64,000 nucleotides of DNA. Origin: Rhizobium sp. Leaf371. Its GTDB lineage: Bacteria; Pseudomonadota; Alphaproteobacteria; Rhizobiales; Rhizobiaceae. The notes below the pieces were generated by a model. It saw nothing but the letters and a program-made list of their open reading frames with translations. It ran no database searches and was not told the origin of the DNA. This document shows, piece by piece, positions 27,975-56,172 of this stretch. The position numbers and the translations under genes were made by a program. Each line of letters opens with the position of its first letter. Position 1 is the first letter of the stretch. The DNA lies in assembly GCF_001424045.1 (NCBI RefSeq), contig NZ_LMQB01000001.1, positions 656,083 through 720,082 of the forward strand, read 5' to 3'.

Positions 27975-29015
27975 ATGACCAAGTATAAGCTCGAGTACAT
28001 CTGGCTCGACGGGTACACACCGGTACCGAACCTGCGCGGCAAGACGCAGATCAAGGAATTCGACGCGTTCCCGGCACTGGAGCAGCTGCCGCTCTGGGGC
28101 TTTGACGGTAGCTCGACCATGCAGGCCGAAGGCCGCAGCTCCGACTGCGTTCTCAAGCCGGTCGCGCTCTACCCGGATCCCGCCCGCACGAACGGCGTTC
28201 TGGTCATGTGCGAAGTCATGATGCCGGACGGCGTCACCCCGCATGCAAGCAATTCCCGCGCGACCATCCTCGATGACGAAGGCACGTGGTTCGGCTTCGA
28301 ACAGGAATACTTCTTCTACCAGAACGGCCGTCCGCTCGGCTTCCCCGAGCAGGGCTATCCCGCACCGCAGGGCCCGTACTACACCGGCGTCGGCTACAGC
28401 AATGTCGGCGACGTCGCACGCGAGATCGTCGAAGAGCATCTGGACCTCTGCCTGGAAGCCGGCATCAACCACGAAGGCATCAATGCCGAAGTGGCCAAGG
28501 GCCAGTGGGAATTCCAGATCTTCGGCAAGGGCTCCAAGAAGGCTGCCGACGAAATCTGGATCGCTCGCTACCTGCTGCAGCGCCTGACCGAAAAGTACGG
28601 CATCGACATCGAGTACCATTGCAAGCCGCTCGGCGACACCGACTGGAACGGCTCGGGCATGCACTGCAACTTCTCGACGGCCTATATGCGCGAAGTCGGC
28701 GGCAAGGCCTATTTCGAAGCGCTCATGGGTGCCTTCGAGAAGAACCTGATGGACCACATCGCCGTCTACGGCCCCGACAATGACAAGCGTCTGACGGGCA
28801 AGCACGAAACGGCTCCTTGGAACAAGTTCAGCTACGGCGTCGCCGATCGTGGCGCGTCCATCCGCGTTCCCCACTCGTTCATCAAGAACGACTACAAGGG
28901 CTACCTGGAAGACCGTCGCCCGAATTCGCAGGGCTGCCCCTACCAGATCGCTTCCGCCGTTCTCAAGACGATTTCGGAAGTCCCGACCGAAGGCTTCGCC
29001 TCGGCCGCTGCCTGA
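27975..29015 (+). CDS. glnII: Glutamine synthetase II (eukaryotic type)
   Basis: ATP-dependent ligation of ammonia to glutamate; 346 residues, the octameric GSII type rather than the 469-residue GSI. Diagnostic stretches are LPLWGFDGSSTMQAEG (substrate/metal region, residues about 39-54), GFEQEYFF, the ammonium/ATP region NEGINAEV-like HEGINAEVAKGQWEFQI, and NKFSYGVADRGASIRVP. GSII is characteristic of Rhizobiaceae and Bradyrhizobiaceae and is induced under nitrogen limitation. ATG at 27975 is placed by homology. A sigma-54 promoter lies 80 bp upstream and a clean terminator follows. Confidence 0.97.
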   Translation: MTKYKLEYIWLDGYTPVPNLRGKTQIKEFDAFPALEQLPLWGFDGSSTMQAEGRSSDCVLKPVALYPDPARTNGVLVMCEVMMPDGVTPHASNSRATILDDEGTWFGFEQEYFFYQNGRPLGFPEQGYPAPQGPYYTGVGYSNVGDVAREIVEEHLDLCLEAGINHEGINAEVAKGQWEFQIFGKGSKKAADEIWIARYLLQRLTEKYGIDIEYHCKPLGDTDWNGSGMHCNFSTAYMREVGGKAYFEALMGAFEKNLMDHIAVYGPDNDKRLTGKHETAPWNKFSYGVADRGASIRVPHSFIKNDYKGYLEDRRPNSQGCPYQIASAVLKTISEVPTEGFASAAA

Positions 29016-29498: not shown

Positions 29499-30182
29499 TT
29501 ACGGCGCCCGTGTCGCTGCCGGCGGCGTGACGGGTGTCGTTACCGCGGGCGTCGTGGCGGCGCTGCCGTCGATGTAAGGCAGGATCTCCAGGCCGCCATG
29601 GTAGAGCATGCTGAGTGCGACGTAGAAGATGACGGCGAGACCGACATAGGCGATCCAGCGATGCTTGTGCAGCAGGTTGGCGATGAAGCTGGCGGCGAGA
29701 CCCATCAGCGCGATGGAGACGATCAGGCCGATGACCAGCACCGTCGGGTGATCCTGCGCAGCACCAGCGACCGCGAGAACATTGTCGAGCGACATGGAAA
29801 CGTCGGCGATGACGATCTGCGTTGCCGCCTGGAGGAACGTCTTGCGGACGCGCGTCTCGTCGGCTGCGTCCCCGGTTTCGTGCGCGGCGTTATGATCCGC
29901 CTGGCGAAGCTCGCTCCACATCTTCCAGCAGACCCAAAGCAGCAGGAGACCGCCGACGAACTGCAGGCCGACGATGGCGAGAAGCTGGACGGTGATGGCG
30001 GCAAAGGCAATGCGCAGGACCGTGGCGGCGATGATGCCGACGAGGATGGCCTTGCGGCGCTGATCCGTGGGCAGGCCCGCAGCAGCGAGGCCGATCACGA
30101 TGGCATTATCGCCGGCCAGCACCAGATCGATGGCAATGACCTGCAGAAAGGCAGCCATTCCGGCTGCTGTAAAAATTTCCAT
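29499..30182 (-). CDS. TerC-family integral membrane protein
   Basis: 227-residue polytopic protein. The two inverted TerC repeats carry the metal-site acidic motifs DLVLAGDNAIVIG (residues about 19-31) and DVSMSLDNVLAVAG (about 125-138). Members (YjbE/YceF/YkoY group) are thought to export manganese or load metals onto secreted proteins; older links to tellurite resistance come from the family name. The C-terminus is a Thr/Pro/Ala-rich tail. No yybP-ykoY manganese riboswitch was recognised in the short upstream region. Confidence 0.85.
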   Translation of the reverse strand: MEIFTAAGMAAFLQVIAIDLVLAGDNAIVIGLAAAGLPTDQRRKAILVGIIAATVLRIAFAAITVQLLAIVGLQFVGGLLLLWVCWKMWSELRQADHNAAHETGDAADETRVRKTFLQAATQIVIADVSMSLDNVLAVAGAAQDHPTVLVIGLIVSIALMGLAASFIANLLHKHRWIAYVGLAVIFYVALSMLYHGGLEILPYIDGSAATTPAVTTPVTPPAATRAP

Positions 30183-31110: not shown

Positions 31111-31311
31111 CTCGGTCGTCTCTCCTGTGCCATCGAAGCTCTATCGCCTCGTTACCGATCCCTTAAGGCAACTTCGCTCCCGCGCACATCCCTATTTCCC
31201 GTCCGCGGATCGGTCATGCAGTCTGCGATGCGACCTCTTCGCATGTGCGAAACACATAGCTGCATTGCAATATCGTCGCTCGCTCGGCTCCGGGATCATT
31301 GTATGATGAAC

Positions 31312-31468
31312 CTATCGAAGCGATGCACCTCCTCCGCAGAGCTTCGATGATCTTGACGCTCCCATCCTCCTCCCGGGATCGTCAGTGTTGGTTGCAGCTT
31401 CTTCTCCTCCCGAGCTGCCAACCGGAATTGAGAGCCTGCTGCACCTCCTCCCGCAGCAGGCTCTTTTC
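31312..31468 (+). ncRNA. Predicted trans-acting small RNA with four anti-SD hairpins (alpha-r14/NfeR1-like)
   Basis: Four consecutive stem-loops, each showing a CCTCC-type motif in the loop: (0) ATCGAAGC / GCTTCGAT, 31314-31321 with 31341-31348; (1) TGACG-C-TCCC / GGGA-T-CGTCA, 31354-31384; (2) GGTTG-C-AGCT / AGCT-G-CAACC with one bulge, 31390-31423; (3) a perfect 12-bp stem 31431-31442 with 31453-31464 followed by TTTT, i.e. the terminator. Loops 1-3 contain CTCCTCCC, loop 0 CCTCCTCC. The pattern of hairpins exposing anti-Shine-Dalgarno motifs is that of the rhizobial alpha-r14 family (NfeR1), which has three; the extra 5' hairpin is unusual. A -10-like TATGAT at 31302-31307 fits a start near 31312-31314. 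No ORF across it is credible. Confidence 0.8.
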
Positions 31469-31738
31469 GTTTCAGAAGCGTCTGCTTTTCGAATCCTTTC
31501 CTGCTGATGATCGATGCGAGGCCCTTTGCATCGTTCAGCGGAACATTGAACAGGAATATGCGTTCCGCATTGTGGTTCAGGGAGCGCCAAGCCTGTGGGT
31601 TCGAACGCCAAACTGTCCGGTCGCCGTCCTCATCGGATGAGGCGGGCGCGAAGGGAGACGAGGGCGATCCGGACTCCCCAGAACCGGCGTCATCAGTATC
31701 GGCCATTGTCGCGCCGAAATCTTGTCGAGGAGCGCGTC
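31469..31738. other. Gap after the small RNA
   Basis: 270 bases without a supported gene. Overlapping frames on both strands have no ribosome-binding site or family resemblance. It may hold the promoter of the small membrane protein that follows. Confidence 0.4.
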
Positions 31739-55568: not shown

Positions 55569-55692
55569 TTCAGGCGCGATCTCGTCGGGCGCTCAACAGT
55601 CGTGAACGCACTGAGCTTCGGTTCGGTCGAAGGGCCGGACATAGCGCGGATGATTGACTTGATCCAGCGACGCGCCTAATCTTGAGTGATGG

Positions 55693-56060
55693 ATGGTTCC
55701 CGTGCGGCGCGTGTCGTTCGGGAGTAAATGGGAATGCGAAGGGATGGACCCAGACAGGGCATCCTCATCGCAGCCGACCCCGCGACTGTAGAACGGTCAG
55801 GGTTCGCCATCCGGTCTCGTCCGATGGACGACGGATCATGCCGCGTGGTGCGGCTGGCGTCGCTCAGAGGGTGCAGCCGGAAAAGCCACTGAAGCAGCGA
55901 TGCGAGCAACCGGGGTCGGACGCCTCCTTATCTACGAATCGTCCACCTCTTCGACATCGATCCGGTCGTCAGACGCCGGGCACACTGTTTCGGGAAGGCG
56001 AGGCGAACCCGTTCTCAGGGCCCTTGCCCTGCGTGACGCCGTGAGCCAGGAGACCTGCCA
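55693..56060 (+). promoter_or_regulatory. Cobalamin riboswitch, long form
   Basis: Adenosylcobalamin-sensing leader of the cobPWNO operon. Elements in order: GGTTCCC (about 55695), GGGAATGCGAAG, CAGCCGACCCCGCGACTGTAGAACGG, GCCACTG at 55885-55891, TCGGGAAGG (GGGAAGG at 55992-55998), and the B12 box GAGCCAGGAGACCTGCC ending at about 56060. All consensus blocks are present, but GCCACTG and GGGAAGG are 100 bases apart, making the whole about 370 bases versus roughly 200-240 typically. Repression of the operon when cobalamin is plentiful is expected. Confidence 0.92.
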
Positions 56061-56172
56061 GCCACACCGCGCCGCGTCCTCATGATGCAGCGTTCCAGCG
56101 CCAGCACGGAGGTTGTCGTGGCACACGAAACGTTCGCCCACCGGGTCATCCGGGCCGGCGATTTTTACGCAT

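Follow-up and report, generated by a model that had tools for sequence, protein, structure and literature searches.

A predicted four-hairpin alpha-r14 small RNA gene in Rhizobium sp. Leaf371 and its conserved 5' hairpin

The small RNAs (sRNAs) closest to the one considered here were described in Sinorhizobium meliloti. The accessible text of PMC3927594 (2011) gives RFMSmelA075 three hairpins and RFMSmelA099 four, with a CCUCCUCCC loop in each, and proposes a single family in which the number of modules varies; in PMC4504443, as far as its text is available, 'cuckoo' RNAs are those with two to four hairpins and a conserved loop motif. SmelA099 (smrA6) was listed in 2010 as a 160-nt RNA on the minus strand of pSymA, at 1328175-1328334 (PMC2873474 and PMC7143759, both available in part), and the accessible portions of the published accounts cover its discovery, coordinates, structure and presumed role in stress or in blocking ribosome-binding sites, with no functional experiment found therein. 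NfeR1 (SmelC397, Smr14C2), the founder of the alpha-r14 family, has three hairpins and 123 nt, and according to the available part of PMC10746234 it lowers ntrB reporter output, or translation, which a variant mutated at all three anti-Shine-Dalgarno (aSD) seeds does not do. Here we compare these RNAs with a locus on the + strand of a 64,000-nt stretch of Rhizobium sp. Leaf371 DNA (the window; NZ_LMQB01000001.1, positions 656,083 to 720,082), whose positions 31313-31468 make up an additional, well-supported member of the published four-hairpin type.

The predicted RNA folds into four stem-loops, numbered 0 to 3, whose limits agree to within 1 nt with those given in an initial annotation made from the sequence. 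The fold of 31312-31470 has an energy of -70.1 kcal/mol, against -43.6 +/- 3.7 in 200 shuffled sequences, none of which equals it (z = -7.14).

31313-31468, + strand: predicted sRNA gene of the four-hairpin alpha-r14 type (from fold, promoter spacing and homology to SmelA099)
31313-31349, + strand: hairpin 0, loop ACCTCCTCC; first 34 nt outside the Rfam model (RNA fold and alignment A1, described below)
31353-31385, + strand: hairpin 1, loop ATCCTCCTCCC (RNA fold)
31389-31424, + strand: hairpin 2, loop CTTCTCCTCCC (RNA fold)
31430-31465, + strand: hairpin 3, stem of 13 bp and loop ACCTCCTCCC, laid out like an intrinsic terminator with a T-rich tail after it (RNA fold)
31347-31468, + strand: match to Rfam RF02344 (ar14), hairpins 1-3, 91.8 bits, E 2.1e-15, model positions 1-123 of 123

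The fold places a CCTCC-bearing loop in all four stem-loops of 31313-31465, as the annotation had claimed. In this GC-rich window, lone CCTCC hairpin loops are not unusual: outside the locus, 37 of 63 clusters on the + strand and 51 of 91 on the - strand pass a loose test for hairpins (6 pairs, -4 kcal/mol) that also lets through many chance CCTCC hairpins, and 40 of the 154 reach -11 kcal/mol. Within the window, four such hairpins inside 150 nt occur at this locus only, the runners-up being three on the + strand and two on the - strand. The perfect 8-bp stem attributed to hairpin 0 is real (31314-31321 with 31341-31348), with an additional terminal U-G pair and, above it, a GA/GA internal loop and 3 further pairs. 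The two GA steps (31322-31323 opposite 31339-31340) could form tandem G-A pairs in the window copy; relatives vary there. Hairpin 3, previously called an intrinsic terminator, has a terminator-like layout and is followed by the T-rich tail CTCTTTTCGTTTC; an automatic scan of this strand, which accepts loops of 3-8 nt, did not call it a terminator, its loop being 10 nt.

A covariance search upheld the earlier assignment to the alpha-r14/NfeR1 family, with a score well over the ar14 gathering score of 58.8 bits, and the match lies on the + strand, which bears out the proposed orientation. Hairpins 1-3 display the three unpaired CCUCCUCCC-type aSD motifs by which alpha-r14 is defined, that of hairpin 2 in the form CTTCTCCTCCC, and the extra hairpin precedes them outside the Rfam model. 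Compared with NfeR1, the window RNA shares the model match of hairpins 1-3, the aSD loops and the kind of upstream element, but it has a fourth, 5' hairpin and a longer predicted transcript. It has the loop motif and modular hairpins in common with SmelA075 (RFMSmelA075), as described in the accessible part of PMC3927594, but four hairpins rather than three, a number within the range of two to four stated for the cuckoo family in what is available of PMC4504443.

The likeness to SmelA099 extends to all four hairpins. Its bases in NC_003037 show the same layout, four successive hairpins whose aSD loops are alike and whose stems vary, over about 160 nt (the ends of the window RNA being set by homology), and its hairpin 0 is almost identical, reading AATCGAAGCGATGCACCTCCTCCCGCAGAGCTTCGAT vs TATCGAAGCGATGCACCTCCTCCGCAGAGCTTCGAT in the window. 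The listed SmelA099 coordinates start just 5' of hairpin 0, at the base homologous to 31313, and this homology is what places the predicted 5' end of the window RNA. Both loci also have an equally spaced -10-like box and a terminator-like last hairpin. They differ in the sequences of stems 1 and 2 and in loop 0, which is shorter by one C in the window; the window is the sole row of 36 in alignment A1 gapped at that C, and one other row (L198) has a shortened hairpin 0 loop, at a different place. The initial annotation had taken hairpin 0 to be new, a claim ruled out by SmelA099 and by its presence in other genera. When named genomes were scanned for GAAGCGATGCACCTCCTCC, the conserved left arm of the SmelA099 hairpin 0, at least 120 stretches matched, and among the 120 matches listed, in a scan that selects for hairpin 0, a script found four CTCCTCC modules within 160 nt in 102, three in 5, two in 2 and one in 11. 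The four-module records among them include Rhizobium, Neorhizobium, Sinorhizobium/Ensifer, Shinella, Agrobacterium, Allorhizobium and Ciceribacter; ten of the 11 one-module stretches lie outside Rhizobiaceae, the remaining one being an Agrobacterium vitis plasmid site (L146).

We considered how hairpin 0 is distributed among alpha-r14 loci. The 5.09-Mb genome that contains the window has five copies over the cut-off, four of them (the window copy included) with hairpin 0 and one, at C1:760084, without it. Conservation in sister genomes, which the annotation had left to be checked, is seen in 24 of the 30 loci read within the genus (30 of 37 listed rows). A search of Rhizobiaceae with one genome per genus gave an alpha-r14 match at E <= 1e-7 in 58 of 61 genomes and over the cut-off in 56. 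Outside the window's genome, 104 matches from 45 genomes, among those listed by score, were read for hairpin 0: 16 passed the loose test, of which 8 were kept, 2 were doubtful (G022, G054) and 6 were set aside; of 104 controls taken at -200 to -140, 4 passed as well. With one locus recognised by eye (G015:C23), hairpin 0 is present in 9 of these 104 matches, from 4 of the 45 genomes. Judged from these loci, hairpin 0 marks a subclass that is frequent in some genera and was not seen in the matches read from 41 of the 45 genomes. Its loop and closing pairs (GCACCTCCTCCCGC in most relatives) are closer to the terminator hairpin 3 than to hairpins 1 and 2, and from its sequence it looks as if derived from a copy of hairpin 3. 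Separately, alpha-r14 copies stand in tandem, three or four to an array, in other Rhizobiaceae genomes (G033:C45:28034-28528, G043:C1:1272388-1272745, G048:C1:893953-894316 and G042:C1:1663504-1663967).

The rarity of hairpin 0 among the loci read across the family, together with the start of the Rfam model at 31347, would fit a different account of the locus, in which only a three-hairpin alpha-r14 RNA (31347-31468) is made and hairpin 0 belongs to untranscribed promoter DNA or is a relic. The features upstream bear on this point.

31244-31257, + strand: degenerate LysR-type box TGTG-N6-ACAT, -69 to -56 relative to the predicted 5' end; 5 of the 8 fixed bases of the published LsrB motif of NfeR1 match
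31255-31269, + strand: conserved promoter element CATRGCTGCANTGCA, exact 15-nt match
31302-31307, + strand: -10-like TATGAT, directly 5' of hairpin 0

Exact copies of CATRGCTGCANTGCA occur at 4 sites in the genome, one 5' of each four-hairpin copy, and the reversed control occurs at none. Spacing was tallied with a 16-nt form, GCATRGCTGCANTGCA, allowing up to 2 mismatches. The genera of G020, G035 and G015 were searched too, adding 45 loci, and 23 further positives came from there or from the family-wide search; nine of 59 loose-test positives were excluded by eye, 7 as tandem-neighbour terminators or chance and 2 (G022:C4, G054:C2) as of doubtful kinship, and G015:C23, missed by the loose test, was added. 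With 9 of 179 loci excluded as doubtful, the tally covers 51 loci with hairpin 0 and 119 without. The element is present in 47 of the 51, where it lies at -90 to -99 relative to the first base of the alpha-r14 core (most often at -94), and in 18 of the 119, where 15 of the 18 have it at -56 or -57. It is thus displaced by 37-38 nt, approximately the length of hairpin 0 (37 nt, 34 of them 5' of the core), and the distance from element to RNA start is constant, within a few nucleotides, only if hairpin 0 is transcribed. The exact form of the motif TGCA-N6-GCAT, published for LsrB, which binds at NfeR1 (accessible text of PMC10746234), overlaps this element and shifts likewise: it lies at the corresponding place in 12 of the 51 loci with hairpin 0, at -100 to -104; of the 119 without, 9 have it in the final 130 nt, at -66 to -69 in 8 and at -89 in 1. 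The -10-like box immediately 5' of hairpin 0 is kept as TTGTATGATGAA in four sister orthologues (L020, L027, L029, L030), and SmelA099 has TATAGT at the corresponding place. Given the spacing shift, hairpin 0 is unlikely to be part of the promoter, and the sequences indicate that it probably lies within the transcript.

In the promoter of the C1:760084 copy (L005), which lacks hairpin 0, the palindrome TGCTGCAATGCAGCA lies between the -35-like and -10-like boxes, just before position 1501, with the same TGCA core at a different promoter position. A DusB-type match below the cut-off lies in the gene at C1:760423, after this copy. In eight other copies without hairpin 0 (L048, L049, L053, L055, L056, L058, L060 and L061), the core was seen by eye to begin right after the apparent end of an open reading frame (ORF), ..NDLGI-RGDIPFVARKS(L/V). 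We take this ORF to be DUF1127-like, and the layout presumably recalls the CcaF1-CcsR arrangement of Rhodobacter.

Covariation provides a second line of evidence on hairpin 0. Alignment A1 contains 36 four-hairpin loci, namely SmelA099 and 35 of 49 distinct loci (window included), and in it hairpin 2 of the window is slightly offset, with the result that its pairs are counted conservatively. Compensatory changes, another check that the annotation had named, are found in 25 of the 38 consensus pairs, with both sides changed in 130 cells; shuffled alignments average 39.7 such cells and none of 500 reaches 130. All 13 consensus pairs of hairpin 3 are kept in 100% of cells across the 36 loci. For hairpin 0 alone, 4 of 8 pairs have both-side changes, in 20 cells vs 4.8 after shuffling, and again none of 500 shuffles is as high. 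In this alignment, hairpin 0 covaries as RNA. This RNA-type covariation, the displaced promoter element, the adjacent -10-like box and the listed SmelA099 5' end, which precedes hairpin 0, all speak against a three-hairpin transcript at this locus, and we regard that account as very unlikely.

We suggest that 31313-31468 would give rise to a trans-acting sRNA of about 156 nt, belonging to the alpha-r14 ('cuckoo') family in its SmelA099-type four-hairpin form; its promoter would combine a -10 box with an upstream LysR-type element common to many alpha-r14 genes. The CU-rich aSD loop on each hairpin would pair with the Shine-Dalgarno (SD) sequences of mRNAs and block the initiation of translation, as the three loops of NfeR1 do; hairpin 0 would be a fourth, probably redundant, pairing module, and hairpin 3 would serve as both pairing module and terminator. 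One such RNA might, as the initial annotation proposed, occupy several mRNAs simultaneously. The NfeR1 transcript is independent of Hfq. By analogy with NfeR1, trans-acting translational repression through the aSD loops is our best guess at the mechanism. Transcription of the locus, the translational block, its targets and any stress- or nitrogen-linked expression are what we infer from the comparison.

Two further accounts of the RNA were weighed. The four-hairpin RNA could be a precursor, with cuts between the hairpins releasing shorter aSD RNAs, the number of hairpins setting the dose rather than allowing multivalent binding. The four loops are near-identical and processed forms appear in the accessible part of PMC3927594, but processing of any four-hairpin RNA was not met in the portions of the literature available; we consider this a possible, tentative refinement of the trans-acting repressor, with which it is not exclusive. 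Alternatively, the RNA might act mainly as a decoy, or sponge, for a protein, for ribosomes or for RNAs that bear an SD, instead of repressing particular mRNAs. Repeated identical loops would fit that role too, and ntrB shows no special complementarity here, but NfeR1, the family member with data, acts by direct aSD-mRNA pairing in the available text of PMC10746234, and a mainly sponging RNA seems improbable.

Structure, family match, conservation, covariation and promoter spacing are direct observations of the present analysis, and a four-hairpin alpha-r14 RNA with a -10 promoter and LysR-type element, acting by aSD-loop translational repression, is very probably their best explanation. Several points weigh against it. 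The SmelA099 5' end consists of sequencing coordinates, and SmelA099 is unnamed in the list of 5' ends mapped by rapid amplification of cDNA ends (5'-RACE) in the accessible part of PMC2873474. The LsrB motif is inexact in the window copy, GCATRGCTGCANTGCA is absent at 2 mismatches or fewer from 101 of the 119 loci that lack hairpin 0, and at the window locus there is no recognisable -35, a generic sigma-70 scan of this strand having found no promoter. In hairpin 0, 97.6% of cells are paired, yet 35 of the 36 rows of A1 were preselected by a predicted hairpin 0, which inflates pairing percentages and, less so, compensatory changes; 18 of 500 shuffles reach its number of pairs with both-side changes, and 30 of 500 its number of pair types. 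Lastly, ntrB, identified in the window's genome by position as the ORF after dusB and by ORF reading, with the first ATG as start, pairs with the four loops at -13.5 to -15.0 kcal/mol, ordinary values given that, among 546 control stretches from that locus, 46-121 do at least equally well; these modelled duplex energies neither support nor rule out ntrB as a target.

The neighbouring genes are as follows.

27978-29015, + strand: glutamine synthetase (glnII), upstream of the sRNA
29499-30182, - strand: TerC, upstream of the sRNA, where small ORFs also lie
Downstream of the sRNA: a small ORF and genes for a DUF6894 protein and an acyltransferase-SGNH protein

The orthologue in L020, L027, L029 and L030 (genomes G001, G006, G005 and G002, respectively) has TerC, the small ORFs and the acyltransferase around it as well, and these likewise flank the named loci L122, L153 and L158; most of these neighbours are retained in G004 (L008), and the copies L295 and L296, from two genomes of a different genus, are flanked by orf30631, orf31739 and the acyltransferase. 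A link to glnII was considered, the gene lying 2.3 kb upstream and also beside the Ferranicluibacter rubi orthologue (L122), yet nothing connects glnII with the sRNA. Elsewhere in the window, a cobalamin riboswitch match lies at 55677-56076 on the + strand (39 bits).

It is conceivable, though doubtful, that the four-hairpin RNAs form a separately regulated alpha-r14 subclass, marked by hairpin 0 and CATRGCTGCANTGCA and multiplied to four copies here and in most sister genomes, whose function would differ from that of three-hairpin NfeR1, perhaps as a stronger, multivalent or processed source of aSD sequences. For the family as a whole, the comparison means that the Rfam ar14 model trims a real 5' hairpin from a subclass found in several genera of Rhizobiaceae, and that the spacing of a promoter element can be read as evidence that this hairpin is transcribed.
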